Assembly: GCA_934045905.1 (NCBI GenBank)
Contig: OW203771.1
Coordinates: 3,472,001 to 3,536,000 of the forward strand
Direction of reading: 5' to 3'
Source of the DNA: Leuctra nigra
Lineage: Eukaryota > Arthropoda > Insecta > Plecoptera > Leuctridae
Length of the DNA: 64,000 nt
Shown: one piece after another, positions 12,330-58,207 of the stretch
How positions within the stretch are numbered: the first letter of the stretch is position 1
Layout: each line of letters starts with the position of its first letter
Made by a program: the position numbers and the translations under genes
Notes under the pieces: model-generated
What the model was told of the DNA's origin: nothing
What the model saw: only the letters and a program-made list of their open reading frames with translations
Database searches by the model: none

Positions 12330-12462
12330 ATGGCTCCGAAGAAGAAGTCGTATGCTTTGGAGAAACCCGGCTGGCATAACGGCAAGAGTGATCTGGAGAG
12401 AATGGGCCTCTTCGTGGAGATGGAATATCTGATCGGAGACAAATACATCAGCCCTTCTGAAG
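12330..12462 (+). CDS. CFAP96: CFAP96-like exon 1
   Basis: ATG at 12330 has the context TTCAACATGG. It encodes 44 residues and ends in phase 1 before GTTCGTGG. The stretch MGLFVEMEYLIGDKYISP is the most conserved N-terminal block of the family. Confidence 0.85.
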
Positions 12463-15400: not shown

Positions 15401-18400
15401 AAATAATTAAAAGGATCAATATTAGAGGTATTTATTTTTGTCAATTCTCGGAATAATCTGTCATAAGTCATAACTGACGTTACTGACATTTGACGGACAT
15501 TTTATGCGTGTTAGAAAATATTTGCCAAATTTTTTGAAGGAAATATCAGATATTTTGATCACTGTTTCTATTACACATTTCCAAAGTCTGTACCAATAGA
15601 GCAGAAACTTGCAAACGCATATCAAATCGCATGCATACGAAGGCTCGCTTATCAAAGAGAGTTTTTCTAGTACATCCTTGAAGATTCTCTTTGACTTCAG
15701 AATGGCGGCAATGAAGCTGAACAAAAAGACGCCGTTCGTGCCGACTGGACCGACGACCCTACAAACACTGGGCGGCCCGGGCTTCTGCCCATCTAGCGCC
15801 CAAGTGGGACGTCCCGGGCGGGAACTACTAGGGCATGCCCTGGGCCTGCCCAACGGAGCCCAACCGATCCGTTTTATCTGGCTGTAAAATTTCTAGGAAT
15901 GTCCCGTCTTGGTCCCGCCCGGGAATGGCTAGGGACGGCCCGCGCGGGCGCTACGACTGTTTGAATTTGAGCTGCTCTAATGACTTATTTTTTTCATATT
16001 TATAACTTCATTTCTATAATAATTACATCTACATTTCACATGGATATATTGATTTAAGAATAAATATGTTTACAATTCCAAAGCAAAGTATTCATACCAT
16101 TTTAAACGTTATTAGTAAAGTTTCTTTTATGAACTCGGCAGTCGGCCATCTTCGTGAATCAACTTGTTTCCATTCTCCCTTCTTCATTTCAAACGCGGCG
16201 TTTGACGTTTGTTGATATTTTACAGAGTGTCATGAGTGTGTAGTTTACGTCCTTTTGAGTGATTTTGAATGTGATTTCAATTATTATCTGTGTCCGTGAA
16301 TGCAGTGTTCACTGCTGAATAGTTTGTCTCAGTTCAAACCATTTAATGTGACACAAATCGTGAAATAATTACAGTTTTGTTGTGCCTCTTTTGCTTGGAT
16401 TTTCATCACAGAGCCATACAACCCATTAAAGGTGAGTCTTCATCACAACTACCTACATAAGTATCCAGGCATTAATCGTTGTTACTTTAGTTTTGTATGC
16501 TGGGGATACTAATAAACCAATAGGTAGTGTGACCAATGTTCAGTAAACATTAACCTCACATGTAAATTTTTGAAATGTAGCAATTTATGCAAAGTAAAAT
16601 TTCCAACTAGGTAGTTTAGGTATTTATAAAATAAATAAAGTAGGTAAACAGTTTGCTTGGCGTGGTAGTCTATACATATCAGTGGTAGTAGTCAGTAGGA
16701 AACCCTACCTGTAGGTACCTAGTACGTACCTCCGCCTATTTTGGGAATATTTTCACCTCTACATTAACCAATAACCATCCCACATACCTACCAAGGTACC
16801 TACTGCAGTTTTAATAATGTTACTTGTTAAAGGTGAATCTACTCTGGAAGAAAATAGGCTATTAAGATATTGAACTCCAGAAACAAAGCGCGTATTCGTC
16901 CTGCGAGCGAACCAAGCTGTATCGTCAAACCGAGCCGAAACATTAAGAACCGAACCGAGCAGAGTGGTAAATATTTTCATTATTTTTAATTATTTAACTT
17001 TATCAAGGATTTTAGATATACATCAATTATTTTTGTTTATGTAGGTACCTTACAAGGCCAATAACAAACATTTTTGCTGTGATCCGAAAGTAAAAATTAT
17101 GTTGCATGGAAATTACATTCTTGTCGGAGGTAGTAGATACATACATTGAATGGTGGTCCCGCTTCATTCAAATACGTAGTAAAATTTTTGAGATTGAATG
17201 TTGTCATCCAAAAAAATAAACCGCACCTTTTGAATTTCCTCTAACGCGCCGGTGGTAAGAGAGCAGCCATTCCATGCGAATGCAGACATATTATGCCACA
17301 TAATACATGATGACTGCTGAATTATTAAATGTAAATAAATCAGCATGTTTTTATATTAAATTCATGGTATTTTCTTGCTGATTCCAAATATGTAATCAGT
17401 TTTTTTTTAAGTTTGAATAGTTATTTTGTTATCAGTAAAATTGTGGGACCGCATTTAAATTTAAATTTCGTGTCGAACCATGTAAATTACATAAAAAATT
17501 TAGAAGGCTGCACAATGATCCTAGAACTATTTTTATTTTGATGAATAAGATGCCCGTACACCCGTAACACGGAATGGCTGAGAGGAAATTAATTTGAGTT
17601 GCTAACTTTCACCTTACTTTTTGTAGGTTCTACAGATTCACCGTGAACTTGCCCTGCTCTTATTCTAGAGTCGATTTAATTGCCTACCTACTTCAATTAA
17701 AAAGTAAATTTACTTCTTGGCAAATTAGCGAGAATTCTGAAGATGCACAGGACTTGGGACTTCATCGAGTTAATGGATTAAATGTTACCTACCCTACAGA
17801 TGTAATGATTCAGAACTCTCTGATGGTAAGCCACATTTTAGTATTTTATATGTGTAGTATTTCCTCTAACCTTACCTATAAATCACATTTATGCAATATA
17901 GAATGTTTCAAATTTTTATTGGGGTTTTAAATAAATAGTGTACCTAATGGTAATAATTGTACCTCAAGTGATTATTGTGGCAGGTCACACAACACAAAAG
18001 TGATTTTTGTATTATTCATTGCCAAGAAGTTTATCCTATCAATTTACAAATTCTTCATTGAATCTATCTTTCTTTTTTTTAGGGATCACTCTGTGCCAAA
18101 AATTCAATTTTTAAAATTTTTGTAAAGACTGTTATTTGCAGCTATCTGCTATTGCAGTTATTTACATAAATAGTTCTTGTGTAGTAGGTAGAAACTATTT
18201 GCTAGGCAGCCTCATGCTCAAAAGAAGTTGCATCCACGTAGATTGCGGATGTCAGTCCTCGACACCACAAGACCGTGTGCTAATAATTTATGGATGGAAT
18301 CCAGTATCTGGCCATTAAATCGGAAAATTCTTTTGAGCATAGCATAATAATAGTGTTAAATATTGACAAAATTAACAAGATCTTACTGATAACAAGATCT

Positions 18401-21400
18401 TGTAAATGTTGGACTTTCATTGGTCTGACCGAATAAAAATTTACACAAAAAATAAAAAACACTTCTAACAATACGCTGCATGATCTTGCTAAACTTTTCA
18501 AGATCTTGTATAAATCTTGTTTAGGTTAGAATCTGTACCTACAATAATAAATAATTGCAAATATCTTGCGAACATTATTAGTACAAGGTACATTACCTAA
18601 ATACTTTGCAATTTTATTTTTTCAGATGAAAGAAATACGTATTCAATAGCATTCATTTTCTTGAAAAACTGAAGATGAAAAATTGTGCCAACATATCCGT
18701 GAGTGAAGTAAAATCCGAATTGTGTCTTGTCGATAAAGAGACAGCGTGCCAGACTCACTGCCAGGTAGTACCTACCTCAGAATGTTTTGATACTATGTGA
18801 CGTGTGAAGGTTGAAGGACATTTAAAAATTTTAAGTGATGTGGTAGTATAATCTTTTACAATAATATACGTTTATATTATATGAAACTGTTTTTTTTTTA
18901 ATTTTCGTGTGTTTTCCTGCTCTTTATTATTCCTAAAATTCAATTGCAGTGAATCTCCTATGTGTAGCATTTTATTTTTTGTAATTTATCAAAACAATAT
19001 AGTACCTAAGTAAGTAGGGAAGAGTACATGAAAATTTTTTTATTGAAACGATTCAATCGTCCTGTAAGAGATTATCAAAAAATAATTGCTAATTTCAAAA
19101 TCCAACAACTGATTCATAAACAAAAATTATGGATCTTTTTATCCTTCTTCATTTTTTTATGAATAAGGTAGGTAATACTTAAGTCTCTAGAAATTTTGTT
19201 CCAGTAAGTTTTTAAATATCAACGCAAATAATTACTGACATTTGTCACCCGCGAAATGTTAAAAATTAATTCATGCAAATGAAATTCAATTATAATGGGA
19301 CTTTTGGCGGGAAAAACGACGTATTACAAGAATCCACTTACACTAATGTGTTACCATTGTGGATCATCTGTCAATTTTCTGTAAATTTTCCTGTTAAAAG
19401 TAATCAAACTTTGTAAATTCATTCCTTGAAAACTATTCATCCCACAGCAAAAATAAAATCACATCTGTGTTCAGCAACATAATCAACTTTCATAAAATAA
19501 GGGTCTATTATTCTGAAATCTGAATTTCACGAGACTTCCCCATTATGTGACAGTCAAGTTGAGGATTTCAAATGATCCCAAAATATTTCCTCCAAATAAA
19601 AATGCGTTAAAAATAAAAACAGTAGGAGGTACCTTAGGTAATGTGTCAGGTCAGTGGAACAGCTTTCAAACAATAGGGAAACATGGCGAGATAAAATAAC
19701 TTCCAATAACCACTGATTAACTTTATAATATAGGTACCGGCTATTTTTTTTTATTAATATTTGACCATTTAAGGTGATACTAGCGCTCGGCCGTTTTAGA
19801 AAATTTAGAGAGAAATATTGTTTCATAAGCGAGTGAACTTTTACAGGATGTTCACATGACCACTCTGATTGCATATTAGTAGCACTTTTTCATTTTTGCA
19901 TATTGCATCGTTAATTAGGCGCCGGTTATTCAACAAAACCGCGCAAAACTATGAAATTTGCGATACGATTGGAGACCAAACCCGAAAACCAATTGATCTC
20001 AAATTTTAATCATGATTAGATGAAAGACAAACTTAGGGTTATCACTTGGCACATTTTTGAAATTTAATTTTATACGGCGGCCAGGGAGACAAGAAAACAG
20101 CTAATTTTTCACCAAAAAGCCACTAATTATTACTAATTAACGAAACAAAAAATTAAAAATGTACCAAGGGATAACCCTAAGTTTGTCTTTTATCTAATCA
20201 CGATTAAAATTTCAAATAATTTGGTCTACCCGTTTCGTCTCCAATCGTATCGCAAAAAGTGTCTACAAAAAGCAGCAAAATCGCTAGCGCTTGCAGCACC
20301 TTAAATGCATTTCTAATGTGTTTGAGTAGGAACCTACTGTTCTTCTAGTTGACATAACAAATTACAACTGTTGTGAAATATTCCGTGAACTGTGAACTAA
20401 TACATTGACCCTGGAAGAAAATACCTGGATTATTTTTTTCGTATGGCAACGCCCACTCTCCGAAATTGTGAAAAAATCCCGTTTCTCGTGTCACTCACGT
20501 TTGCAATTAATTATGTCTTAATGAAACGTATTTTTTCCAGGTACATTCGCATTCAAAATTAGTGCCTATATGCACGTGTCTGGATCAGAGGCACGTTTTG
20601 TAGGTACTGCATTTTGAATGAGAGTGTACCTAGCAAGCTAGCACGTGACCGTTATGGAATGTGCGTAGGGGGAGGGGGCTACAAAGCGAGCAGCTGCTCC
20701 CGCGCGGGCCGCCCGGGCGGGGGCCAGGGCCGGCCTATGCCTCCCGCGCGGGCCGCCCGGGAGGGTCCAGGGACGGCCCATACCTCCCGCGCGGGCGTCA
20801 TGGGACGGCCCAGGCCGCCGCCCGGGCTTATTCCCAGTGGCAGGCCCCGGGAGTCTCACTCCATGCTAATCACCCATAAGACGGGAGGTCCCTGGGCAGG
20901 CCCGTACGCCCATCTGGGACGGCCTAGGACGCGTCCAGGGACCTCCCAGTGTTTGTAGGGGAAGAAACACTCTTGTCCCGGAGACAACTTCGGCACATTC
21001 GGACCAATGCTGGAAGGTATCACAATATCATGCTTTTCTTACTAAAATGTCATTACCTTATGTTACAGATTGATAGTACTCTTCCCATTGTTAACAGATT
21101 ATCTTATTTTGTCTGGGGCTTAACGTCGCACTGTTCTGCAGCGAGGCTAATGGCGACGGAAGAATGATTATGATGATGATTGGGAGACAACAATTTCTTA
21201 GATTATTCACATTTTCTTACTAATCTGGCCGGTGGCCCTATATTTTGGAACGGCTTTGTTATTTTTATTTATATTTACTTTTTAAATTCCCAATAGTATT
21301 AGGAGCAATTTAAGGCATTAATGCGATTATATCAATATTGCCATACCTACCTACATCGAAATATAATATTTCCATGTATCAATATATCGATATTTCTATA

Positions 21401-24400
21401 TTTCAATATTTCAATATATCGATATTTCAATATTTCAATATATCGATATTTCTATATTTCAATATTTCAATATATCGATATATCGATCCAAGCTCGATCC
21501 ATACCTACTTTGATCATCTTCAGCAGCCAATGATGAATAATCAAAGTATCATCGAAATATAGTTTTTATGTCTGTGCCCAGAGGTAAAAGGCCCGAAGTT
21601 AATTGTTTCTATGTCGCGTTGCACACTTTTAGAATGATGTAATCAAGCTCTTTACAAACAAATACAGTTGTATTTAAGTATTCTCTTACACAATGACTCA
21701 TGTCACCATTACAAATACGATTGGCTGCAGACAGAATTACTGGTTTTTTGTACTAAACTCATGAATAATTGAAATAGATTTCGTGCCCTAACTCTGAGCT
21801 ACAGATTTGATTTTAATAGTTTCTTTTAGTAAAATGAGGGGTAGCAAAATCTGCCATCTCTAAAAAATTATTTTTGAGTTAGAAAGACGTCACAGTTTTT
21901 AATTCTTCATCTTCAAAATACGATGTGAGATGCAAGAAACAATACTTCGTTTTAAAACTTGGATTAAAAAACAGATTTCGCCAGTGCTGCATCTGACCTT
22001 CTCAAACACTCTCTTCTGTTTCTGATAACCGTGTCTGTGCCAGCCATGAGCCCGGCGCTGGTAAAGAAGCCGCCCCACGCGAAGGAGAAGCCCAACTTCT
22101 ACACCAACCCGGGCTTGATGCTGCATCTGACCTTCTCAAACACTCTCTTCTGTTTCTGATAACCGTGTCTGTGCCAGCCATGAGCCCGGCGCTGGTGAAG
22201 AAGCTGCCCCACGCGAAGGAGAAGCCCAACTTCTACACCAACCCGGGCTTGATGCTGCATCTGACCTTCTCAAACACTCTCTTCTGTTTCTGATAACCGT
22301 GTCTGTGCCAGCCATGAGCCCGGCGCTGGTGAAGAAGCTGCCCCACGCGAAGGAGAAACCCAACTTCTACACCAACCCGGGCTTGATGCTGCATCTGACC
22401 TTCTCAAACACTCTCTTCTGTTTCTGATAACCGTGTCTGTGCCAGCCATGAGCCCCGCCCTGGTGAAGAAGCCGCCCCACGCGAAGGAGAAACCCAACTT
22501 CTACACCAACCCGGGCTTGATGCTGCATCTGACCTTCTCAAACACTCTCTTCTGTTTCTGATAACCGTGTCTGTGCCAGCCATGAGCCCGGCGCTGGTGA
22601 AGAAGCTGCCCCACGCGAAGGAGAAACCCAACTTCTACACCAACCCGGGCTTGATGCTGCATCTGACCTTCTCAAACACTCTCTTCTGTTTCTGATAACC
22701 GTGTCTGTGCCAGCCATGAGCCCGGCGCTGGTGAAGAAGCTGCCCCACGCGAAGGAGAAGCCCAACTTCTACACCAACCCGGGCTTGATGCTGCATCTGA
22801 CCTTCTCAAACACTCTCTTCTGTTTCTGATAACCGTGTCTGTGCCAGCCATGAGCCCGGCGCTGGTGAAGAAGCTGCCCCACGCGAAGGAGAAACCCAAC
22901 TTCTACACCAACCCGGGCTTGATGCTGCATCTGACCTTCTCAAACACTCTCTTCTGTTTCTGATAACCGTGTCTGTACCAGCCATGAGCCCGGCGCTGGT
23001 GAAGAAGCTGCCCCACGCGAAGGAGAAGCCCAACTTCTACACCAACCCGGGCTTGATGCTGCATCTGACCTTCTCAAACACTCTCTTCTGTTTCTGATAA
23101 CCGTGTCTGTGCCAGCCATGAGCCCGGCGCTGGTGAAGAAGCTGCCCCACGCGAAGGAGAAGCCCAACTTCTACACCAACCCGGGCTTGATGCTGCATCT
23201 GACCTTCTCAAACACTCTCTTCTGTTTCTGATAACCGTGTCTGTGCCAGCCATGAGCCCGGCGCTGGTGAAGAAGCTGCCCCACGCGAAGGAGAAGCCCA
23301 ACTTCTACACCAACCCGGGCTTGATGCTGCATCTGACCTTCTCAAACACTCTCTTCTGTTTCTGATAACCGTGTCTGTGCCAGCCATGAGCCCGGCGCTG
23401 GTGAAGAAGCTGCCCCACGCGAAGGAGAAGCCCAACTTCTACACCAACCCGGGCTTGATGCTGCATCTGACCTTCTCAAACACTCTCTTCTGTTTCTGAT
23501 AACCGTGTCTGTGCCAGCCATGAGCCCGGCGCTGGTGAAGAAGCTGCCCCACGCGAAGGAGAAGCCCAACTTCTACACCAACCCGGGCTTGATGCTGCAT
23601 CTGACCTTCTCAAACACTCTCTTCTGTTTCTGATAACCGTGTCTGTACCAGCCATGAGCCCGGCGCTGGTGAAGAAGCTGCCCCACGCGAAGGAGAAACC
23701 CAACTTCTACACCAACCCGGGCTTGATGCTGCATCTGACCTTCTCAAACACTCTCTTCTGTTTCTGATAACCGTGTCTGTGTCCAGCCATGAGCCCGGCG
23801 CTGGTAAAGAAGCCGCCCCACGCGAAGGAGAAACCCAACTTCTACACCAACCCGGGCTTGATGCTGCATCTGACCTTCTCAAACACTCTCTTCTGTTTCT
23901 GATAACCGTGTCTGTGCCAGCCATGAGCCCGGCGCTGGTGAAGAAGCTGCCCCACGCGAAGGAGAAACCCAACTTCTACACCAACCCGGGCTTGATGCTG
24001 CATCTGACCTTCTCAAACACTCTCTTCTGTTTCTGATAACCGTGTCTGTGCCAGCCATGAGCCCGGCGCTGGTGAAGAAGCTGCCCCACGCGAAGGAGAA
24101 GCCCAACTTCTACACCAACCCGGGCTTGATGCTGCATCTGACCTTCTCAAACACTCTCTTCTGTTTCTGATAACCGTGTCTGTGCCAGCCATGAGCCCGG
24201 CGCTGGTGAAGAAGCTGCCCCACGCGAAGGAGAAACCCAACTTCTACACCAACCCGGGCTTGATGCTGCATCTGACCTTCTCAAACACTCTCTTCTGTTT
24301 CTGATAACCGTGTCTGTGCCAGCCATGAGCCCGGCGCTGGTGAAGAAGCCGCCCCACGCGAAGGAGAAGCCCAACTTCTACACCAACCCGGGCTTGATGC

Positions 24401-27400
24401 TGCATCTGACCTTCTCAAACACTCTCTTCTGTTTCTGATAACCGTGTCTGTGCCAGCCATGAGCCCGGCGCTGGTAAAGAAGCCGCCCCACGCGAAGGAG
24501 AAGCCCAACTTCTACACCAACCCGGGCTTGATGCTGCATCTGACCTTCTCAAACACTCTCTTCTGTTTCTGATAACCGTGTCTGTGCCAGCCATGAGCCC
24601 GGCGCTGGTGAAGAAGCTGCCCCACGCGAAGGAGAAGCCCAACTTCTACACCAACCCGGGCTTGATGCTGCATCTGACCTTCTCAAACACTCTCTTCTGT
24701 TTCTGATAACCGTGTCTGTGCCAGCCATGAGCCCGGCGCTGGTGAAGAAGCTGCCCCACGCGAAGGAGAAGCCCAACTTCTACACCAACCCGGGCTTGAT
24801 GCTGCATCTGACCTTCTCAAACACTCTCTTCTGTTTCTGATAACCGTGTCTGTGCCAGCCATGAGCCCGGCGCTGGTGAAGAAGCTGCCCCACGCGAAGG
24901 AGAAGCCCAACTTCTACACCAACCCGGGCTTGATGCTGCATCTGACCTTCTCAAACACTCTCTTCTGTTTCTGATAACCGTGTCTGTGCCAGCCATGAGC
25001 CCGGCGCTGGTGAAGAAGCTGCCCCACGCGAAGGAGAAACCCAACTTCTACACCAACCCGGGCTTGATGCTGCATCTGACCTTCTCAAACACTCTCTTCT
25101 GTTTCTGATAACCGTGTCTGTGCCAGCCATGAGCCCGGCGCTGGTGAAGAAGCCGCCCCACGCGAAGGAGAAGCCCAACTTCTACACCAACCCGGGCTTG
25201 ATGCTGCATCTGACCTTCTCAAACACTCTCTTCTGTTTCTGATAACCGTGTCTGTGCCAGCCATGAGCCCGGCGCTGGTAAAGAAGCCGCCCCACGCGAA
25301 GGAGAAGCCCAACTTCTACACCAACCCGGGCTTGATGCTGCATCTGACCTTCTCAAACACTCTCTTCTGTTTCTGATAACCGTGTCTGTACCAGCCATGA
25401 GCCCGGCGCTGGTGAAGAAGCTGCCCCACGCGAAGGAGAAACCCAACTTCTACACCAACCCGGGCTTGATGCTGCATCTGACCTTCTCAAACACTCTCTT
25501 CTGTTTCTGATAACCGTGTCTGTGCCAGCCATGAGCCCGGCGCTGGTGAAGAAGCTGCCCCACGCGAAGGAGAAACCCAACTTCTACACCAACCCGGTCT
25601 TGATGCTGCATCTGACCTTCTCAAACACTCTCTTCTGTTTCTGATAACCGTGTCTGTGCCAGCCATGAGCCCGGCGCTGGTGAAGAAGCTGCCCCACGCG
25701 AAGGAGAAACCCAACTTCTACACCAACCCGGGCTTGATGCTGCATCTGACCTTCTCAAACACTCTCTTCTGTTTCTGATAACCGTGTCTGTGCCAGCCAT
25801 GAGCCCGGCGCTGGTGAAGAAGCTGCCCCACGCGAAGGAGAAGCCCAACTTCTACACCAACCCGGGCTTGATGCTGCATCTGACCTTCTCAAACACTCTC
25901 TTCTGTTTCTGATAACCGTGTCTGTGCCAGCCATGAGCCCGGCGCTGGTGAAGAAGCTGCCCCACGCGAAGGAGAAGCCCAACTTCTACACCAACCCGGG
26001 CTTGATGCTGCATCTGACCTTCTCAAACACTCTCTTCTGTTTCTGATAACCGTGTCTGTACCAGCCATGAGCCCGGCGCTGGTGAAGAAGCTGCCCCACG
26101 CGAAGGAGAAGCCCAACTTCTACACCAACCCGGGCTTGATGCTGCATCTGACCTTCTCAAACACTCTCTTCTGTTTCTGATAACCGTGTCTGTACCAGCC
26201 ATGAGCCCGGCGCTGGTGAAGAAGCTGCCCCACGCGAAGGAGAAACCCAACTTCTACACCAACCCGGGCTTGATGCTGCATCTGACCTTCTCAAACACTC
26301 TCTTCTGTTTCTGATAACCGTGTCTGTACCAGCCATGAGCCCCGCCCTGGTGAAGAAGCTGCCCCACGCGAAGGAGAAACCCAACTTCTACACCAACCCG
26401 GGCTTGATGCTGCATCTGACCTTCTCAAACACTCTCTTCTGTTTCTGATAACCGTGTCTGTGCCAGCCATGAGCCCGGCGCTGGTGAAGAAGCTGCCCCA
26501 CGCGAAGGAGAAGCCCAACTTCTACACCAACCCGGGCTTGATGCTGCATCTGACCTTCTCAAACACTCTCTTCTGTTTCTGATAACCGTGTCTGTACCAG
26601 CCATGAGCCCCGCCCTGGTGAAGAAGCTGCCCCACGCGAAGGAGAAACCCAACTTCTACACCAACCCGGGCTTGATGCTGCATCTGACCTTCTCAAACAC
26701 TCTCTTCTGTTTCTGATAACCGTGTCTGTGCCAGCCATGAGCCCGGCGCTGGTGAAGAAGCTGCCCCACGCGAAGGAGAAACCCAACTTCTACACCAACC
26801 CGGGCTTGATGCTGCATCTGACCTTCTCAAACACTCTCTTCTGTTTCTGATAACCGTGTCTGTACCAGCCATGAGCCCCGCCCTGGTGAAGAAGCTGCCC
26901 CACGCGAAGGAGAAACCCAACTTCTACACCAACCCGGGCTTGATGCTGCATCTGACCTTCTCAAACACTCTCTTCTGTTTCTGATAACCGTGTCTGTGCC
27001 AGCCATGAGCCCGGCGCTGGTGAAGAAGCTGCCCCACGCGAAGGAGAAACCCAACTTCTACACCAACCCGGGCTTGATGCTGCATCTGACCTTCTCAAAC
27101 ACTCTCTTCTGTTTCTGATAACCGTGTCTGTACCAGCCATGAGCCCGGCGCTGGTAAAGAAGCTGCCCCACGCGAAGGAGAAGCCCAACTTCTACACCAA
27201 CCCGGGCTTGATGCTGCATCTGACCTTCTCAAACACTCTCTTCTGTTTCTGATAACCGTGTCTGTGCCAGCCATGAGCCCGGCGCTGGTGAAGAAGCTGC
27301 CCCACGCGAAGGAGAAGCCCAACTTCTACACCAACCCGGGCTTGATGCTGCATCTGACCTTCTCAAACACTCTCTTCTGTTTCTGATAACCGTGTCTGTG

Positions 27401-30400
27401 CCAGCCATGAGCCCGGCGCTGGTGAAGAAGCTGCCCCACGCGAAGGAGAAACCCAACTTCTACACCAACCCGGGCTTGATGCTGCATCTGACCTTCTCAA
27501 ACACTCTCTTCTGTTTCTGATAACCGTGTCTGTACCAGCCATGAGCCCCGCCCTGGTGAAGAAGCTGCCCCACGCGAAGGAGAAACCCAACTTCTACACC
27601 AACCCGGGCTTGATGCTGCATCTGACCTTCTCAAACACTCTCTTCTGTTTCTGATAACCGTGTCTGTACCAGCCATGAGCCCCGCCCTGGTGAAGAAGCT
27701 GCCCCACGCGAAGGAGAAACCCAACTTCTACACCAACCCGGGCTTGATGCTGCATCTGACCTTCTCAAACACTCTCTTCTGTTTCTGATAACCGTGTCTG
27801 TGCCAGCCATGAGCCCGGCGCTGGTGAAGAAGCTGCCCCACGCGAAGGAGAAACCCAACTTCTACACCAACCCGGGCTTGATGCTGCATCTGACCTTCTC
27901 AAACACTCTCTTCTGTTTCTGATAACCGTGTCTGTACCAGCCATGAGCCCCGCCCTGGTGAAGAAGCTGCCCCACGCGAAGGAGAAACCCAACTTCTACA
28001 CCAACCCGGGCTTGATGCTGCATCTGACCTTCTCAAACACTCTCTTCTGTTTCTGATAACCGTGTCTGTGCCAGCCATGAGCCCGGCGCTGGTGAAGAAG
28101 CTGCCCCACGCGAAGGAGAAACCCAACTTCTACACCAACCCGGGCTTGATGCTGCATCTGACCTTCTCAAACACTCTCTTCTGTTTCTGATAACCGTGTC
28201 TGTACCAGCCATGAGCCCGGCGCTGGTGAAGAAGCTGCCCCACGCGAAGGAGAAACCCAACTTCTACACCAACCCGGGCTTGATGCTGCATCTGACCTTC
28301 TCAAACACTCTCTTCTGTTTCTGATAACCGTGTCTGTGCCAGCCATGAGCCCCGCCCTGGTGAAGAAGCTGCCCCACGCGAAGGAGAAGCCCAACTTCTA
28401 CACCAACCCGGGCTTGATGCTGCATCTGACCTTCTCAAACACTCTCTTCTGTTTCTGATAACCGTGTCTGTGCCAGCCATGAGCCCGGCGCTGGTGAAGA
28501 AGCTGCCCCACGCGAAGGAGAAACCCAACTTCTACACCAACCCGGGCTTGATGCTGCATCTGACCTTCTCAAACACTCTCTTCTGTTTCTGATAACCGTG
28601 TCTGTGCCAGCCATGAGCCCGGCGCTGGTGAAGAAGCTGCCCCACGCGAAGGAGAAGCCCAACTTCTACACCAACCCGGGCTTGATGCTGCATCTGACCT
28701 TCTCAAACACTCTCTTCTGTTTCTGATAACCGTGTCTGTACCAGCCATGAGCCCGGCGCTGGTGAAGAAGCTGCCCCACGCGAAGGAGAAACCCAACTTC
28801 TACACCAACCCGGGCTTGATGCTGCATCTGACCTTCTCAAACACTCTCTTCTGTTTCTGATAACCGTGTCTGTACCAGCCATGAGCCCCGCCCTGGTGAA
28901 GAAGCTGCCCCACGCGAAGGAGAAACCCAACTTCTACACCAACCCGGGCTTGATGCTGCATCTGACCTTCTCAAACACTCTCTTCTGTTTCTGATAACCG
29001 TGTCTGTGCCAGCCATGAGCCCGGCGCTGGTGAAGAAGCTGCCCCACGCGAAGGAGAAGCCCAACTTCTACACCAACCCGGGCTTGATGCTGCATCTGAC
29101 CTTCTCAAACACTCTCTTCTGTTTCTGATAACCGTGTCTGTACCAGCCATGAGCCCCGCCCTGGTGAAGAAGCTGCCCCACGCGAAGGAGAAACCCAACT
29201 TCTACACCAACCCGGGCTTGATGCTGCATCTGACCTTCTCAAACACTCTCTTCTGTTTCTGATAACCGTGTCTGTACCAGCCATGAGCCCCGCCCTGGTG
29301 AAGAAGCTGCCCCACGCGAAGGAGAAGCCCAACTTCTACACCAACCCGGGCTTGATGCTGCATCTGACCTTCTCAAACACTCTCTTCTGTTTCTGATAAC
29401 CGTGTCTGTGCCAGCCATGAGCCCGGCGCTGGTGAAGAAGCTGCCCCACGCGAAGGAGAAACCCAACTTCTACACCAACCCGGGCTTGATGCTGCATCTG
29501 ACCTTCTCAAACACTCTCTTCTGTTTCTGATAACCGTGTCTGTGCCAGCCATGAGCCCGGCGCTGGTAAAGAAGCCGCCCCACGCGAAGGAGAAGCCCAA
29601 CTTCTACACCAACCCGGGCTTGATGCTGCATCTGACCTTCTCAAACACTCTCTTCTGTTTCTGATAACCGTGTCTGTGTCCAGCCATGAGCCCCGCCCTG
29701 GTGAAGAAGCCGCCCCACGCGAAGGAGAAACCCAACTTCTACACCAACCCGGGCTTGATGCTGCATCTGACCTTCTCAAACACTCTCTTCTGTTTCTGAT
29801 AACCGTGTCTGTGCCAGCCATGAGCCCGGCGCTGGTAAAGAAGCCGCCCCACGCGAAGGAGAAGCCCAACTTCTACACCAACCCGGGCTTGATGCTGCAT
29901 CTGACCTTCTCAAACACTCTCTTCTGTTTCTGATAACCGTGTCTGTGCCAGCCATGAGCCCGGCGCTGGTGAAGAAGCTGCCCCACGCGAAGGAGAAGCC
30001 CAACTTCTACACCAACCCGGGCTTGATGCTGCATCTGACCTTCTCAAACACTCTCTTCTGTTTCTGATAACCGTGTCTGTGCCAGCCATGAGCCCGGCGC
30101 TGGTGAAGAAGCTGCCCCACGCGAAGGAGAAGCCCAACTTCTACACCAACCCGGGCTTGATGCTGCATCTGACCTTCTCAAACACTCTCTTCTGTTTCTG
30201 ATAACCGTGTCTGTGCCAGCCATGAGCCCGGCGCTGGTGAAGAAGCTGCCCCACGCGAAGGAGAAACCCAACTTCTACACCAACCCGGGCTTGATGCTGC
30301 ATCTGACCTTCTCAAACACTCTCTTCTGTTTCTGATAACCGTGTCTGTGCCAGCCATGAGCCCGGCGCTGGTGAAGAAGCTGCCCCACGCGAAGGAGAAG

Positions 30401-33400
30401 CCCAACTTCTACACCAACCCGGGCTTGATGCTGCATCTGACCTTCTCAAACACTCTCTTCTGTTTCTGATAACCGTGTCTGTGCCAGCCATGAGCCCGGC
30501 GCTGGTGAAGAAGCTGCCCCACGCGAAGGAGAAACCCAACTTCTACACCAACCCGGGCTTGATGCTGCATCTGACCTTCTCAAACACTCTCTTCTGTTTC
30601 TGATAACCGTGTCTGTACCAGCCATGAGCCCGGCGCTGGTGAAGAAGCTGCCCCACGCGAAGGAGAAACCCAACTTCTACACCAACCCGGGCTTGATGCT
30701 GCATCTGACCTTCTCAAACACTCTCTTCTGTTTCTGATAACCGTGTCTGTGCCAGCCATGAGCCCGGCGCTGGTGAAGAAGCTGCCCCACGCGAAGGAGA
30801 AGCCCAACTTCTACACCAACCCGGGCTTGATGCTGCATCTGACCTTCTCAAACACTCTCTTCTGTTTCTGATAACCGTGTCTGTACCAGCCATGAGCCCG
30901 GCGCTGGTAAAGAAGCCGCCCCACGCGAAGGAGAAGCCCAACTTCTACACCAACCCGGGCAAGAAGGGCGGGCCGGGTTACATCGACATCACGCTCAGCA
31001 AGTATCCAGAGCATCTTCCAGATCCGTATGGCGAGGCGGCCAACAGGGCGCGCAAGGCCTTCCTGGAGGACAAGAAGAAGTAGGTGCACGATCAGGGATA
31101 ACACAAGGCCGTCCTTCTGACAGGTTTCTTTGGTGCTAGTTGCTGCCGTTGGGCCAGAGAGAATGGGGAGTTTGGGGGCCAGTGTGATGACCTCCCTCCA
31201 CCTGTTATCAGTCTCTCGACGGCGCGGGTTGTGGAGGCTCGTGCTGTGAGTGTTACACCGTCCTTCGGATGGGACGTTAAGCCGTTGGCCACCTTGGTAT
31301 CTTTCGTCAGGAGTAGGCTACATGCCGGTATCGGGTTTCCTCTCCTCCCTTTTCCATATTACATTCTCACTAGTGGCATTTAATTCCGTTGACGGTATAG
31401 AATATTATTATTGTCATCATTACAAAAAAATACGAACTTACTCTAAGAAATAATCCCTTGTATCAAAAAGCGTATACCATGTCCCTCACACAATCCACAA
31501 CCTACTCCTTCCTATACCTTTCTTCCTATTCCAACAAATAAGTGATACGTGATTGAGCCACTTCTGGCAGGAAACTTTTTAGATGCACTTTTTTTATTAT
31601 GAAGTTCGTGTTTCCATAGGGCAGTGAAAAAAGGAGAAACAATTGTAATTTAGATTTAGTTACAAGTTTACTTTTTCAGCCATAAGAAACAACTAAAGCA
31701 AATTGAATATTATTTATTCATATAAATATCCCCGTGATATCCTCCATTATCCCCCTTATGGCTAGTACCAAAGAATCCACCAGAGGTCAGTCGTGTTCCT
31801 TATTTTCTCGAATTCTTCATCATGATCTCCTGTAAAATCATCATAATTAATTCGTTGCCATTAGCCTAGTTCAGAACATTGCAATCATAAAACTAGGGGC
31901 TGGATTCACAAAAGGTTTTAAGCCCTATACCGGCATAACTTTATGTCGGTATAGCATTATAACTACCAATATTTCTATTACCAAGTTATTCCCATGTTAA
32001 AACTTGGTATTTTACTAGACAAACGCTCTGTGTAACGCGTTGATGAGCGAGCAGGGATACGCGCAACACCTCGAACCAAAATTCTGTATATTAAAAATGT
32101 CATTAAAAGCCAATAATTATTCAATTTCGTCACAGATGTGTATGAAAATCTTCAAAAATAGGGAAGTCTCTTGAAATTTTATTCTAGAGTTAATTTTTAA
32201 ATATCAACACAAATAACAATGATCACACTTATCATGAGCAAAATTAAAACTTTTCATTCGTAAAAAATAAATTCAAATATCATAGGATATTTTGGCGGGA
32301 AAACGGCAGGCAACGAGAATCAGGATTGTGATGTCATTTCCAAGACTCCAACAATGTGTTACCATGGTGATTCCTTTGTCATGCTTTGTAATGCTTTGTG
32401 CTATGACAATATAGCGGATTGTGATGTCATTGTCAATTTTCCTGTTTTAAAATTGTAAGAAATACGATATATCAATCTTTGTAAATTAATTCCTTGAAAA
32501 CTATTCATCTCACAACAAAAATAATACCATATCTGTGTTCAGCAACATCTCAAGTTTCAACGAACAAATATTATTTTGAAATCTAATTTTAAGGAGACTT
32601 CCCTTGGTCCCAATAACCATGCAAAGTTTTGAGTTGATCGATTGAACCTCTATGATTGAACGGTTCCTTGTTAATTTTTAAAAATCACAGGATCTTGTTC
32701 AAAAAATATACCTGGGACCACTCATATGATATAAGTGTGTGTTCACAATATCAGATCGATCTGTTGATTATTAGTGTCATAATGATGCGTTTGAAAGTTT
32801 CTGTTCTAACTACCTTGGAACATTGGAACTAAGGCGTCAATGTTGCCGTGATCATAGCAACAAGCAAATGTCCGTAAAATGTCTATAACTTTTGGATTTA
32901 AACACAGATTTGTCTGAAAATTGTCAAAAACACAGATACTGTGGGTCCCAATGACCATGCAAAGTTTTAAGTTGATCGGTCAAACGGTTCAAGTTTAAAT
33001 TTAAAAAATCACAGTAAAGATGGTTTTAAATTTTAACCAATGGGAGGATTTGGCTGAAACTTTGTATGATTGGGTAAAATGTTAGTCGTAATGACTTGTC
33101 AAAATTTCAAATTGATGAAACGAACCAATCGAAAGATATTTTTTTTTTAAATTTGAACCAATCAATGGATTTAAAAAAAATTAGGGTCTGCAACGCCCAG
33201 AAATGGTCCGTACATGTGTGCAAAATGTCAACTCGATCGAAGAAAAACTGTGACTTGTATACCGGCAGTAACAGAATTACAAAAAAAAAACAAAAAAAAA
33301 CAGAGGTCCGTGCCAAAAGAGCCAAAAGGAGACGCTCGCTTCGCTCGCTCAATCATTTGAAATGGCGATCTGAATAATTATATTTATAAAGATATGCTGG

Positions 33401-36400
33401 TAAAACATGGTAATTACTAATATTGATATTAGTTTTTTCGGTCATAAAGTTATACTTCTTTGTGAATCCAGCCCTAGAAGAAGAAATAATATAGTTACTC
33501 ATGATAACCGGCATACAACGGCTGGTCATGTTACGGAGATTGTGGTATCACATACGCACTTGTTTCACCAGGAATTTAGGCAAACCGTTCTTGACAACAT
33601 CTTACCCTGGAGGCTACTTCAACAAGAACCCCTTCTTCACTGACAAACCCGGCCCAGTGTACAAGGTGCCGAAACGCGACGCTATGGGCCGAGGCAAGTG
33701 GATTCCTCCGGCGCCGACCAAGTGGGTGTGTACAGTCATGTTCTTATAGTAACTTCACCTTTATGGCTGAAGATTCAATTGACATTGGAGCGATTGGCAG
33801 ATGTTTATTAATGCTATGATGGAATTATAGGGTTTACGTTTCTACCAATTTGTCTTTAAGAAATAAAAGTTCCAGCAAACGCAATTCACTTTGCATTTTG
33901 ATGTTTATAGTAATATTTATTTATTTTATTTATTTATTATTTATTTTATTTATTTATAAAATGTATTTATTTATTATTTTATTTTCAGGGCAAATGCCCT
34001 CTCAAATAAAATAAAACTTTAATGAAGAGCGATACTTAATACACAAATCAAAAATAATCAATTTTTTGAAAATTTTATATATCGACCAACATCTGCTACC
34101 ATTTGTAAAAACCTCAAATATGATTGGTTATTGGATATTAGCAAAACCATTGTTAAATTCAACATTCAAATCTAATTGAATAATAAAAATTATAATTTAA
34201 AGATGATAATAAAATAACACAACATCTAATAATAAAAAAAAATACCAACAATATTGAAGATTTCACAAATGGTGGCAGAAGTTGGTCGATAAATAAAAAT
34301 TCCAAAAAATGGATTATTTTTAATCCGTGTATTGTATCACGAATAGCATTAAAAGGACTCGGTAAGGTAACGGGATCGTATTCATCACCAAAGATAATTA
34401 AAGCAAGCAAGGCATCACTTCGAGATCGTACTAGATATTGATTTATTCTTAGGACTTGTTTCCGCAGTGTAAAGGAAGTAGATTGTTGGTTGGTTGGTTG
34501 TGCATTTTAATAGACATTGCACGATATTAAGCAGACCATTATCAATACTAGGAAAACGCTCCGTGAAACGCGTTGATGAGCGAGCACCGGACACGTGCGC
34601 AAACATAGAACCGAAGATGCGTTAACACATAGAAAACATTAATACACGTTTTAACGTTATTAAACCTAGATTAAACGTTAAACAGTTCTACCTAGTTTAG
34701 AAACAGAATGAATCCAACGTTCCACAATTACAATAAGACAATGTAGTGTTTTAAACTGAATGAATCAAACCTTTAAAAAAAATTAGCATCCTTCAAGGAA
34801 ATGTCAGGCTAGACAGAAGCTCAGAAACGGAATGAATCCAACGTTTTCACAAGTAGGTACCTATTGGTAGAAGAAGACTATTAAGAAATGAAATGTCAAT
34901 GTTCTGACAAAAACTCTCGACTAGGAAAACGCTCAGTGTAACGCGTTGGTGAGCGAGCACGGGGACATGCAAATTCTCGAACCGGAAATGCGTACACAAG
35001 CACAGAAAACATATACATCCATATTGAATTGAAATATGATAACTCAATCAACACAACATATTATTATGCTTTTCATTGAAACTTGAAAATAATATCTAAG
35101 CATCTAAGAACCCTGGTTAAAATAAAACAAATCAGATTCAATCCAATTGGCACTGGAAAACATTCATTTTGATACTTCATTACTGACAGATATTAAAAAT
35201 GTTAATAAGTTCATACGTTCTTAACTGATTGGGATGAAATTTTGTAAAATAAGAGACAATGTTGGTCTTAATGATCATGCAAAATATGAGTTTGATCTGA
35301 ATTATCGAAGACCGTTTTCATTTTTCAGCCTATCAGGAGATATTTATTTAAATTTTAACCAATTAATGGATTTCAAAAAAATTATGGTCTGCAAACAGAG
35401 AAGGTTGGTTTTACATGTGTGCAAAATTTCAGCTAGATCAAAGTAAAACTCTGACCTGTATAGCCAAAATATGAATTTGATCAGATTTATCGAATACCAT
35501 TTTCATTTTTCAACCTATCAGGAGATGTTTATTTCAATTTTAACCAATGAATGGATTTAAAAAAAATTTGGGGCCTGCAAACAGAAAAGGTTGTCTCTAC
35601 ATGTGTGCAAAATTTCAGATCGATCGAAGAAAAACTCTGACCTGTACAGCCTCACCCAACAGAAAAAAAAAAACAAAAAAAACAGAGGTCCGTGCCAAAT
35701 GAGCCGAAAGGAGACGCTCGCTACGCTCGCTCAACTATATTGGAATTAGGGTGAACGTTTTAACTTTTAAAAAGAATCCCTTGACCGTAATTTTTAATTA
35801 TCGACCCACATCTGGCACCATTTGTGAAAACCTAAAATATTGGTTGTTATTTTTTATTAGCCAAATCTTTAATAGCTTCCTAATTTAAAACTGACTGAAA
35901 AACTGTATTACGTACAGAATTATGTGAATATCATCGACAGCATGAAGAGGTATCGCTGAGGTAACGGGATCGTATTTATCACTTGGAAGTCGAATCAGTG
36001 GTCGTTCTGAACTCCAGTTTGTGGCATTATTCATTAGTGTGGGTTTAAATGTGCGGCTTCTCTTGGATTTGTTCAAATTCTGTTCGGCTGGGTGATTAAG
36101 TTCGAGACTAGGAAAACTTTAACTCGAGATGATTATGATTCATGACGATAATAAATGAATATAGTTTCACCCAAAATATCATGAAAATAACAGAAATTGA
36201 AGTGTACAGGGGAAGAACGCTATGAGTCACATTCGGATGAAACTGACATAAACGAAGTTTTATGTTGAAACTTGTATCTATCTTCCATACAAATCGATAT
36301 TTCAATTGCGTTTTCAAAATTTTGTGCGGCAATATTTTCTAAATACCGAGGGTATATTCTGAAAGCTCATAAAAATCACTGCAATATTACACCTTAAGGA

Positions 36401-37472
36401 GGGACACCACCGAAAATCCCAACTTGTATGTTTGTAACACAAACGTCTTGATTTTTTATATTATTGTCAAACTTTACCTATAAAAAGATATAAAAAATAT
36501 GAAAAAAGTGATTTTTTTTTATTTTTTTCAAAAAAAATTACGGTATCTATGGAGACACTTTTTTCTTGAAAACAGTTTGATTTAGAATGTTATAAAAAAT
36601 TTCATTCTGTTTAATAAAGTGCATTTGACAAATTTATGTATCGGCGTTATTTTATGATAATAATTGTGGGATTGAAAAATTAATTAACTGAACAAATTTC
36701 TTTTTCAGCTAATTGTACATAATTTCCCATTTTTATAATTTTTGTGTGCATGATACTCTCAAGATATACTATTGGTAATACATAAATTTGTTCATTATTA
36801 TGTTTATAACATACACAAAAAATATTGTGCAAATCCACCAAGTACATTAGATTTTATTTTATTCTCCATTCCGAATAATCTTGAAAAAAAATATTGCTAG
36901 GAAACGGCATTCAAACATTGCCAGTATTTAACCGCAAAATGCGAATGAAAATGTTAAATGTTAAATATTTTTTTCCAGTTCACTTTTTCACAATTTTTTT
37001 TCACTAGCCTTTAATTAGCATAATAAATAATTTAATGACATTAAAAAAATATATATCGGAAAATTAAAATAATAGCACAATTTTCGGTGGTGTCCCTCCT
37101 TAACTCATTTTTTTTAAATGACTCATAGCGTTCTTTCTCTGTGCCCTTCAACTGTCTGATACATGACTTTCATGACAATATAATGTGTCTTATGTCATCT
37201 GATGATCATTTGCTTGGGATGATGCACAGGGTCGGGTCGAAGGCTGCTTCAGCAAGTTCCCCGCCTACGAGACTGGCACGGAGAAGAAGACGAAGAAGGA
37301 GGCGAAGACAGAGGCTGCGAGGACCAAGATCTTCTACCCGGGCATGAGGATCAAGCCGATGCCGACCACCTCCATCGTCAGCCACAACGTCGACTACAGA
37401 GTGAACGCCAAGAACTGGCGCGGCTATCAGCCCACAGTCTACCCAGCTAGGATGCTCAGGACGTATTCCTAA
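12330..37472 (+). CDS. CFAP96: CFAP96 (C4orf47)-like ciliary protein, six coding exons
   Basis: Coding exons by phase and acceptor logic: 12330-12462; 14777-14918; 15701-15756 plus 20963-21016 (one exon split by a transposon); 30890-31079; 33572-33725; 37230-37472. Joined without the insert they give 972 nt, 323 residues; the vertebrate protein is about 310. It starts MAPKKKSYALEKPGW and has the family's N-terminal LERMGLFVEMEY...GDKYISP. Then come GYFTKFIRVFEKEAY, DNFGTFGPMLE, the signature PNFYTNPGKKG, SYPGGYFNKNPFFTD and a basic C-terminus ending ARMLRTYS. CFAP96 is a cilia/flagella and centrosome-associated protein; the exact role in this animal is inference. Donors: GAAG|GTTCGT, ACGC|GTGAGT, GAAG|GTATCA, AGAA|GTAGGT, GTGG|GTGTGT. 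Exons 2 and 4 are tandemly amplified upstream of the functional copy. Whether mature mRNA is still made is the open question. Confidence 0.8.
13174..13307 (+). mobile_element. Helitron-like 3' terminal fragment (copy 3)
   Basis: Ends CATCAACGCATTACACAGGG, then CGTTTTTCTAG and a host T. Its internal part (TGTTTCTATTACACATTTCC, AAAGTCTGTACCAATAGAGC) is repeated almost exactly at 15547-15670. It lies upstream of the exon 2 array in intron 1. Confidence 0.55.
13360..14889 (+). repeat. Exon 2 tandem array: ten copies of a ~154-bp intron/exon unit
   Basis: Units start at 13360, 13514, 13668, 13822, 13976, 14130, 14284, 14438, 14592 and 14741. The first eight steps are exactly 154 bp. The ninth step is 149 bp, and the tenth unit has the same shortened acceptor region. 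Each unit is 41 nt of intron 1 (ACATGTTATTCAAAGAGATT to the acceptor CTCCAG) plus the first 113 nt of exon 2 (ATGAAGGACC... to GCCTACACG). Only the tenth copy runs on into GATATGTTGAAGAAGG and the real donor. Copies are near identical, differing at a few sites (GATGG/GGTGG/GATGC; GGGTTTTG/GTGTTTTG). The unit is not a multiple of 3, so the array cannot be read as a repeated protein. Confidence 0.95.
14777..14918 (+). CDS. CFAP96: CFAP96-like exon 2 (functional last copy)
   Basis: Acceptor AG at 14775-14776 (TGTGCTCCAG). The exon encodes AMKDQRMKGRQMYPGVPPSK, then PDGYFTKFIRVFEKEAYTDM and LKKERQDA, with donor GT at 14919-14920 (GTGAGT). Phases fit exon 1 and exon 3. The upstream nine copies have the acceptor but lack the donor. 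Confidence 0.85.
15547..15670 (+). mobile_element. Helitron-like 3' terminal fragment (copy 4)
   Basis: Shares the segment CACTGTTTCTATTACACATT through AACGCATATCAAATC with copy 3 and ends GAGTTTTTCTAG before T. It lies only 30 bp upstream of the exon 3 acceptor, so introns 1 and 2 carry the same element close to their 3' ends. Confidence 0.5.
15701..15756 (+). CDS. CFAP96: CFAP96-like exon 3, left part (interrupted)
   Basis: The acceptor TTGACTTCAG precedes AATGGCGGCAATGAAGC. The exon encodes MAAMKLNKKTPFVPTGPT and then meets the transposon tip. Joined to 20963-21016 with one GA removed, the frame is kept and reads PTGPT-KKHSCPGDNFGTF, which aligns to the family without a gap. Confidence 0.75.
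15757..20960. mobile_element. 5.2-kb TIR transposon inserted in CFAP96-like exon 3
   Basis: The ends are perfect inverted repeats CCCTACAAACACTGGG (15757-15772) and CCCAGTGTTTGTAGGG (20945-20960), flanked by the 2-bp direct repeat GA (15755-15756, 20961-20962). Both ends hold GC-rich subterminal repeats of the types GGGACGGCCC, GCGCGGGC and CCGCCCGGG (15765-15960 and 20690-20945), while the 4.7-kb middle is AT-rich. The related element at 52268-53385 shares the tip CCCnnCAAACACTGGG. No transposase was recognised; weak exon-like segments are listed separately. The superfamily is not clear: short TSD and subterminal repeats resemble CMC-type elements, but the tip does not match a class I know. 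Confidence 0.8.
17627..17825 (+). CDS. Possible coding exon inside the exon 3 transposon
   Basis: Open between a pyrimidine-rich acceptor (ACTTTTTGTAG) and a good donor (CTGATG|GTAAGC). It reads NLPCSYSRVDLIAYLLQLKS..., continuing to VMIQNSLM. A second candidate exon ends near 18764 with TGCCAG|GTAGTA and reads KNCANISVSEVKSELCLVDK. This suggests a multi-exon element gene, but no domain is recognised. Confidence 0.25.
20963..21016 (+). CDS. CFAP96: CFAP96-like exon 3, right part
   Basis: Reads KKHSCPGDNFGTFGPMLE and ends in phase 1 at GAAG|GTATCA. The frame upstream of the GA duplication contains TAG inside the transposon tip, so this part is coding only after removal or splicing of the element. 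Confidence 0.72.
21355..21490. repeat. Low-complexity ATATTTCAATATATCGAT repeat
   Basis: Irregular tandem repetition of ATATTTC, AATATATCGAT and TATATTTC blocks within intron 3. Confidence 0.85.
21985..30960 (+). repeat. Exon 4 tandem array: 67 copies of a 134-bp intron/exon unit
   Basis: The first unit begins TGCTGCATCTGACC at 21985 and the last at 30831. The distance of 8846 bp is 66 periods of 134 plus 2; two copies (near 23781 and 29678) carry one extra base (TGTGTCCAG). Each unit is 59 nt of intron 3 end (pyrimidine-rich, ending CTGTGCCAG or CTGTACCAG) plus 71 nt of exon 4 (CCATGAGCCC... to AACCCGGGC) plus a 4-nt joint TTGA. Variant sites include GTGCCAG/GTACCAG, GGCGCTG/CGCCCTG, GTGAAG/GTAAAG, CTGCC/CCGCC and AAGCCC/AAACCC. 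The array is 9 kb and otherwise almost uniform. Minus-strand open frames of 75 codons recur every unit as an artefact. Confidence 0.96.
30890..31079 (+). CDS. CFAP96: CFAP96-like exon 4 (functional last copy)
   Basis: Acceptor AG at 30888-30889 (CTGTACCAG). It reads AMSPALVKKPPHAKEKPNFY, then the family signature TNPGKKGGPGYIDITLSK, and on to ARKAFLEDKK. The donor is AGAA|GTAGGT at 31080, in phase 2. Read without splicing the frame meets TAG at 31081-31083, so the donor choice matters; splicing gives KKK-NLGKPFL with exon 5. Confidence 0.83.
31122..31410 (+). repeat. SINE-like repeat, copy A
   Basis: Shares GACCTCCCTCCACCTGTTAT, CAGTCTCTCGACGGC, GTCCTTCGGATG, CCTTGGTATCTTTCGTCAGG and AGTAGGCTA with 42430-42860. 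The two begin to diverge outside these blocks. Non-coding; about 280 bp. Confidence 0.6.
32015..33351 (-). mobile_element. Helitron/Helentron-like element (copy 5)
   Basis: Left end CTAGACAAACGCTCTGTGTA preceded by A; right end GACGCTCGCTTCGCTCGCTC then A. At 1.34 kb it is the longest copy here. The interior repeats CAAAGTTTTGAGTTGATCG and CAAAATGTCAACTCGATCG-type phrases about every 150-300 bp. Confidence 0.62.
33572..33725 (+). CDS. CFAP96: CFAP96-like exon 5
   Basis: The acceptor TTTCACCAG precedes GAATTTAGGC. It reads NLGKPFLTTSYPGGYFNKNP, then FFTDKPGPVYKVPKRDAMGR and GKWIPPAPTKW, ending on a codon boundary before GTGTGT. The YPGGYFNKNPFF core matches the family's YFDTNPYF element. Confidence 0.83.
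33905..34006. repeat. TTTA microsatellite
   Basis: Imperfect run of ATTT/TTTA units (TATTTATTTATTTTATTTAT type) in intron 5. Confidence 0.9.
34075..34400. repeat. Repeat R, first copy (contains an inverted repeat)
   Basis: ATCGACCAACATCTGCTACC (34081) reappears inverted near 34260-34295. The block also matches 35785-35985 in direct orientation (CATCTG.CACCATTTGT; GGTAACGGGATCGTAT). It is probably an old transposon end. Confidence 0.5.
34548..34920 (-). mobile_element. Helitron-like fragment (copy 6), cut off by copy 7
   Basis: Starts CTAGGAAAACGCTCCGTGAA, then ACGCGTTGATGAGCGAGCAC. It carries the GGAATGAATCCAACGTTTTC block shared with copy 2 and stops where the next copy's CTAG begins at 34921. 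Confidence 0.5.
34921..35733 (-). mobile_element. Helitron/Helentron-like element (copy 7)
   Basis: CTAGGAAAACGCTCAGTGTA at the left; GACGCTCGCTACGCTCGCTC then A at the right. The interior has two rounds of TTTTCATTTTTCAGCCTATC, then AACCAAT(G/T)AATGGATTT, then CAAAATTTCAG.T.GATC. Confidence 0.62.
35785..35985. repeat. Repeat R, second copy
   Basis: Direct copy of parts of 34075-34400 (ATCGACCCACATCTGGCACC; GAGGTAACGGGATCGTATTT). The two copies flank Helitron-like copies 6 and 7. Confidence 0.5.
36394..37103. mobile_element. TTAA-flanked TIR element (GGAGGGACACCACCGAAAA)
   Basis: TTAA at 36394-36397 and 37100-37103 encloses a 702-bp body with perfect 19-bp inverted ends GGAGGGACACCACCGAAAA / TTTTCGGTGGTGTCCCTCC. 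TTAA target duplication is typical of piggyBac and Kolobok superfamilies. No transposase. It lies in intron 5 of the CFAP96-like gene. Confidence 0.8.
37230..37472 (+). CDS. CFAP96: CFAP96-like exon 6 (C-terminus)
   Basis: The acceptor GATGCACAG precedes GGTCGGGTCGAAGGC. It reads GRVEGCFSKFPAYETGTEKK and TKIFYPGMRIKPMPTTSIVS, ending YPARMLRTYS with TAA at 37470-37472. It corresponds to the family's C-terminal G.F..FP.Y and FHPPG...RP..S blocks. Confidence 0.83.
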   Translation, partial: GRVEGCFSKFPAYETGTEKKTKKEAKTEAARTKIFYPGMRIKPMPTTSIVSHNVDYRVNAKNWRGYQPTVYPARMLRTYS

Positions 37473-44098: not shown

Positions 44099-44267
44099 AC
44101 CACCTCATCCTTTCCATGAAAGGTAGAGTTAGGTATACTAAGATAAGATACTTTATCCAACTACTATTAACTATAGTAATATACATTTGGCAGAGAGGAG
44201 GGGCGGGGGTGGAGGGCAGTTTATCTTGTTGTACTTTGCGTTTCGTACCTTGATTTCGGTGTAATAA

Positions 44268-58100: not shown

Positions 58101-58207
58101 CTGTATACTCTGAAATAGAGAGGATGTCCCGAGCATAAGCAGCACTTCAGCAACTTCGATGATGTACAATGCAATATTTTTCAATATAATCCTATCTTGT
58201 GTTAGTA

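Follow-up and report, generated by a model that had tools for sequence, protein, structure and literature searches.

Here, we describe the locus of a CFAP96 gene in the plecopteran insect Leuctra nigra, analysed in a window of 64,000 nucleotides (NCBI GenBank assembly GCA_934045905.1, contig OW203771.1, positions 3,472,001 to 3,536,000 of the forward strand); all coordinates below are positions within this window. The gene has seven coding exons, and two of its splice acceptors lie in tandem arrays whose units each carry the end of an intron and the start of the following exon. The features of the gene and its arrays are as follows.

12330..12462, plus strand: CFAP96 coding exon 1 (exon joining, Pfam match)
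13359..14888, plus strand: array 1, 10 units with the same layout as array 2 (tandem repeat finding, unit cutting)
14777..14918, plus strand: CFAP96 coding exon 2, starting inside the last array 1 unit (exon joining)
15701..15803, plus strand: CFAP96 coding exon 3 (exon joining)
20959..21016, plus strand: CFAP96 coding exon 4, with the intron 4 donor GT at 21017 (exon joining)
21985..30960, plus strand: array 2, 67 units of 134-135 bp, the last of 130 bp (tandem repeat finding, unit cutting)
30890..31079, plus strand: CFAP96 coding exon 5, its first 71 nt inside the last array 2 unit (exon joining)
31080..31085, plus strand: exon 5 donor GTAGGT (exon joining)
33572..33725, plus strand: CFAP96 coding exon 6 (exon joining)
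37230..37472, plus strand: CFAP96 coding exon 7, including the stop (exon joining)

Joined, the seven exons make up 1023 nt with a single open frame of 340 aa and GT/AG at all six junctions. Judged by its predicted product, the host gene is CFAP96, which encodes a cilia- and flagella-associated protein. The 340-aa protein matches the Pfam CFAP96-like profile (PF15239) with E = 1.6e-62 and 212.7 bits (cut-off 27) over profile positions 1-295 of 296, and it matches four distinct CFAP96 chain sequences in the Protein Data Bank, the best at 1.6e-31. A protein search yielded 17 matching proteins among 512 candidates; insect proteins are the best of the named matches, at 36-54% identity, and two bird proteins rank lower. 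Relative to its homologues, the protein has gaps only at an insert at intron 3 and in short loops, and the gene appears intact.

The larger array, array 2, lies between coding exons 4 and 5. Tandem Repeats Finder reports a period of 134, 67.0 copies and 98% matches, and cutting at the unit start gives 67 head-to-tail units, which confirms the 67-copy array of about 9 kb that an initial annotation, made from the DNA alone, had placed at 21985..30960. Unit cutting also reproduced the proposed unit, in which 59 nt from the end of the intron are followed by 71 exonic nt and a TTGA filler, and a GT stands at the end of coding exon 4, where the annotation had set the donor (21017). Its numbering and proportions need correcting: the 'intron 3' and 'exon 4' that it named are intron 4 and coding exon 5, exon 3 having seemingly gone uncounted, and the repeated 'half of an exon' is 71 of 190 nt (37%), slightly above one third. 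Unit spacing is 134 nt in 64 of 66 cases and 135 nt in two, units 14 and 58 having one additional T directly 5' of CCAG. The final unit has 130 nt, without TTGA, and continues into the full exon 5.

The 67 almost identical acceptors claimed initially are indeed present, all of them ending in CCAG and falling into three variants (46, 19 and 2 copies). A scan of unit 2 found CTGAT at -22 and CTGAC at -51 in the intron part, both resembling the branch-point consensus, and showed the acceptor's own AG to be the only one in the 59 intronic nt. The intron part of the other units differs from unit 2 at one single-nucleotide variant (SNV) and one insertion only. The pyrimidine tract is weak in all 67 units (53-59% over 17 nt). 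GC content is 51-56% in the units, 32% in the intron ahead of the array and 40% in the window. On the minus strand, a listing of frames of at least 70 aa contained no gene that would explain the array; it shows repeated frames of 76-121 aa, a 78-aa frame at the left edge and a 168-aa frame spanning the right one.

Array 1, which did not figure in the initial annotation's finding, has the same layout in the same gene. It starts at 13359 and ends at 14888 by unit cutting, or at 14897 by Tandem Repeats Finder. Its 10 units comprise eight of 154 bp and, as the final two, a distinct type of 149 bp. Each contains 42 or 37 nt of intron end with a CTCCAG acceptor, followed by the first 112 nt of exon 2, and the unit junctions have no filler. 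The full 142-nt exon 2 is reached from the last unit only. Among the tandem repeats in the window with a period of at least 100, array 1 and array 2 alone have at least three copies, and both straddle CFAP96 acceptors. At nine of the ten other CFAP96 exon boundaries, no local duplication was found within 2.5 kb, and the match at the tenth, the exon 2 donor, corresponds to array 1.

The reading frame remains open when the last acceptor is used in both arrays, giving an exon 5 of 190 nt and an exon 2 of 142 nt. In array 2, the frame entered at any acceptor before the last (66 sites) runs through ...NFYTNPG (NPV for a single unit) and LMLHLTFSNTLFCF to a stop, as the initial annotation had predicted. 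Unit cutting and the frame joins also bear out its claim that the complete exon is reached from the last acceptor alone. The nine upstream acceptors of array 1 lead to a frameshift and a stop. Depending on the acceptor, exon 5 would measure 190 nt (the last), 324 nt (the next upstream) or 9036 nt (the first).

Several other roles for the units were considered and rejected. The array is not a translated repeat, as the frames from all 66 upstream array 2 acceptors stop in the following unit; the label 'coding minisatellite' used initially is misleading because 66 of the 67 units are predicted to be intronic. Serial micro-exons were discarded on account of the donor-like site in each unit, CTG/GTGAAG in 59 units and CTG/GTAAAG in eight, which is weak against the donor consensus. 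Recursive splicing and zero-length exons were dismissed in the absence of any AG/GT, the acceptors reading CCAG/CC in array 2 and CTCCAG/CT in array 1. A structured RNA element was rejected because no Rfam family reaches its gathering score anywhere in the window and the fold of one unit is barely above that of shuffled sequences (z -1.47, with 16 of 200 shuffles equally or more stable).

Array 2 varies at seven SNV sites and by one 1-nt insertion, which form 15 haplotypes with a mean pairwise difference of 2.1 per unit, as expected of exchange within the array. Neighbouring units are no more alike than in shuffled order (P 0.20); over the 20 lags tested, likeness is higher at lag 10 (P 0.0015) and at lag 2 (P 0.027), both uncorrected. 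Stretches in which the order of units repeats are at most four units long, inside the shuffled range. Assemblies are known to be prone to error in long tandem arrays, and an artefact would leave one or a few units at the true locus. Such an error apparently befell the BflGb6 array of amphioxus in its draft genome (PMC3087553; this and the other papers cited by PMC number were available in part, and what is said of them refers to those parts). The structured differences between units argue otherwise, because 15 haplotypes and a repeated order of at most four units show that array 2 is not a long block pasted repeatedly, and the second array at another exon points to a real process. We therefore regard an artefact as very improbable.

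We consider it probable, at about 0.78, that this one CFAP96 gene carries two minisatellites of the 'mirage' type described in amphioxus, that each began as a duplication across an acceptor and grew by exchange, and that the array is spliced out through the last acceptor. To the observed anatomy, gene, reading frames and pair of arrays, we add by inference the acceptor choice, the origin and mode of growth, and the near-neutrality of the arrays. Two separate events would each have produced a tandem duplication between a breakpoint in the intron, just 5' of the acceptor, and another inside the exon. End joining would have made both, and the 4-nt filler at the junctions of array 2 and its absence from those of array 1 fit this process. 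The duplication would have been tolerated, since it leaves the original exon intact at its downstream end, and unequal exchange together with conversion would have led to growth to 67 and 10 units.

In exon definition, an acceptor pairs with a donor across a normal exon length. The CFAP96 transcript would be spliced from the upstream donor to the last acceptor, as this is the sole one that pairs with the exon 5 donor over the normal 190-nt exon, and the other 66 units would be removed within a 9.9-kb intron. Removal of the array in this way is, on our analysis, the most likely outcome. Since the non-final units are predicted to leave with the intron, a duplication across the acceptor would be nearly neutral, and the arrays could therefore grow.

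The initial annotation could not name a precedent for this layout, and published ones exist in the amphioxus mirages (PMC3087553, PMC3902484) and in a single duplication in human CBS (PMC2630376). Mirages are minisatellite-like tandem repeats across an intron-exon boundary, with units of 10-160 bp in the cases reported (PMC3087553). In the globin gene BflGb6, the 3' end of an intron and the 5' part of exon 2 are repeated in units of 150-160 bp, the authentic exon is kept, and two haplotypes have six and three units (PMC3087553). The globin BflGb9 and Adh3 are further cases, and lancelet PGBD5, Adh and TnC have been added as boundary-spanning repeats, those of PGBD5 being imperfect and located at 5' and 3' splice sites (PMC3902484). 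By their published description, mirages have units homogenised inside the array with the edges left out, and a length that is unstable between alleles or somatically; it has also been proposed that such arrays seed new introns (PMC3087553).

Both CFAP96 arrays are likewise boundary-spanning tandem repeats of minisatellite-size units (134/135 bp and 154/149 bp), each with the authentic exon boundary complete at one edge (exon 5 and exon 2). They differ from the amphioxus arrays in having an insect host, in reaching 67 and 10 units compared with the six and three of the BflGb6 haplotypes, and in occurring as two acceptor arrays in one gene. The amphioxus authors concluded from reverse transcription PCR that their data suggest mirages leave regular splicing undisturbed (PMC3087553, PMC3902484), whereas the splicing of CFAP96 is here predicted from DNA alone. 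Array 2 is thus probably a large example of an oddity known from lancelets. Within the available portions of open-licence PMC papers, we found neither a mirage in an insect nor an acceptor array of this many units.

The human CBS variant 844ins68 is a one-step version of the CFAP96 layout, a polymorphism with one extra 68-bp copy and no array. There, splicing strongly favours the site beside the complete exon, and the mRNA is normal (PMC2630376, where the sites are termed 'splice donor', although the cited source has 3' splice site in its title); traces of another transcript occur in the nucleus (PMC1334203). According to a table, CBS also has a 31-bp variable number tandem repeat (VNTR) at exon 13-intron 13 (PMC1395315). 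The VNTR in intron 18 of human ABCA7 has a 25-bp unit that starts with a splice donor, and its largest allele measures 10678 bp, or about 427 units (PMC5954066). Like array 2, it lies between two exons, carries a splice signal in every unit and reaches up to about 10.7 kb; unlike array 2, it has 25-bp units and donors instead of acceptors, its available description includes no exon sequence, and splicing changes measurably. Repeat variation at exon-intron boundaries of human duplicated genes also alters the structure of genes and can give rise to new introns (PMC2812944). Those repeats differ from the CFAP96 arrays in having units of about 30 bp, four on average, in lying within segmental duplications and in often being kept in transcripts as well.

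Several points weigh against silent removal of two neutral arrays. Skipping of ABCA7 exon 19 grows with array length, with values of 12 +/- 6% in lymphoblastoid lines and 45 +/- 10% in brain area BA10, where the combined alternative transcripts outweigh the canonical transcript in 90% of cases (PMC5954066), and for 66% of the repeat-driven intron changes in human duplicated genes, a transcript in which the repeat is kept is also supported (PMC2812944). Nor does the acceptor sequence itself single out the last site in array 2, because the acceptors are alike and the variant of the last one (TACCAG) is common to 19 of 67. The variants 79A and 87C are shared by units 1 and 67 and by some interior units. 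Finally, random placement of one unit each gives a chance of about 1.4e-4 (window) or 0.0018 (gene span) that two arrays fall on two acceptors of one gene, both figures being post hoc and taking no account of GC content; since the coincidence is this improbable, an unknown bias or selection may be at work.

A regulatory role, in which the array supplies decoys or yields truncated mRNA or mRNA targeted by nonsense-mediated decay, is possible. In its specific form, upstream acceptors would be used in a regulated manner, or the array would soak up splicing factors, and copy number would tune CFAP96 output. The unit does retain a branch-point-like CTGAT, a CCAG acceptor and no other intronic AG, as scanned in unit 2, and the ABCA7 VNTR, with a donor in each unit, changes splicing and expression: a single unit is retained at 2 +/- 1%, and with increasing length exon 19 skipping rises and expression falls (PMC5954066). 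Four of the six exonic SNV sites of array 2 are synonymous (P 0.038), but array 1 shows the reverse, with two of 11 exonic changes synonymous, so coding sequence is not generally preserved in the units. We accordingly rejected coding constraint on the copies. The exon part of array 2 is also more variable (six sites in 71 nt) than the intron part (one site in 59 nt, plus the insertion). Overall, we judge a functional array unlikely. A broader proposal, which we rate slightly lower still, is that a recurrent genomic process makes and expands arrays of an acceptor plus an exon start, as in lancelets, that CFAP96 is a hot spot for it, and that the 67 acceptors act as a decoy bank setting the amount of full-length CFAP96.

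Intron 3 of the same gene has the look of a transposon. Terminal inverted repeats of 16 bp that match perfectly (CCCTACAAACACTGGG) are located at 15757-15772 and 20945-20960, and the element they delimit (15757-20960) has GA on either side, a 2-bp match that alone is possibly due to chance. The CFAP96 protein has 17 residues at the ends of the element that are missing in all 11 homologues aligned there. Once the element and the duplicate are removed, the frame becomes ...PFVPTGPTKKHSCPGDNFGTF and aligns without gaps to P0001 (PFVPPGCNKSHACPGDFFGTF). The 51 extra coding nt are exactly accounted for: the element contributes 47 nt before the donor (15804) and its final 2 nt behind the acceptor, and the duplicate adds 2 nt. 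Intron 3 is thus likely to be a transposon that landed in a coding exon and turned into an intron (intron gain). A second element of 1.1 kb, at 52268-53385, has similar ends (CCCAGCAAACACTGGG, two mismatches), TA flanks and GC-rich internal tandem repeats of the GGGACGTCCC type, and probably belongs to the same family.

Three structural changes in one gene, the two arrays and the transposon-like intron 3, might mark a decaying or superseded copy that tolerates them. Against this stand 340 open codons with GT/AG at every junction, a Pfam profile matched nearly end to end, and the lack of any gap relative to homologues besides the intron 3 insert and short loops. On the evidence of this window, we think a decaying or superseded copy improbable.

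Dispersed repeats also occur in and around the gene. Segments 13166-13333, just 5' of array 1, and 15534-15699 are 81% identical; the second ends at the exon 3 acceptor, so that a dispersed repeat directly adjoins this splice site. A portion of about 39 nt is found again, in inverted orientation, near 2.9, 32.0, 34.5, 43.3 and 44.5 kb. Further dispersed repeats are located at 32604-33352, 34920-35738, 43307-44100, 44641-45381 and 62537-63364. The longest matches of introns 5 and 6 to the rest of the window are 73-89% identical, and several copies contain an internal duplication of about 187 nt.

Elsewhere in the window, an intronless 352-aa frame on the minus strand (8419-9477) resembles 3-hydroxyisobutyryl-CoA hydrolase (HIBCH; Pfam ECH_2, 5.2e-113). 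Among the best 120 of 7987 scored proteins, its closest named relatives are insect proteins at no more than 68% identity, and all named matches are from insects except four crustacean records. The frame is possibly an intact retrocopy. Also on the minus strand, 41244-43431, 48923-51233 and 56413-58310 hold three tandem genes, judged similar by eye from shared motifs, with Thr-rich stalks of short tandem repeats; C2-set_2 (immunoglobulin-like) was found in 48923-49564, and 50619-51233 and 42838-43431 have no Pfam match. Part of an Arf/Sar-type small GTPase is present at 1512-1856 (Pfam Arf, 2.4e-23).

The CFAP96 arrays suggest that boundary minisatellites, described for lancelets, occur in an insect too, in up to 67 copies. 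Array 2 provides a natural experiment on how the splicing machinery selects one of dozens of nearly identical acceptors, and the presence of two arrays in one gene bears on whether some exon boundaries readily undergo tandem duplication. The arrays also bear on the published proposal that such repeats seed new introns (PMC3087553).

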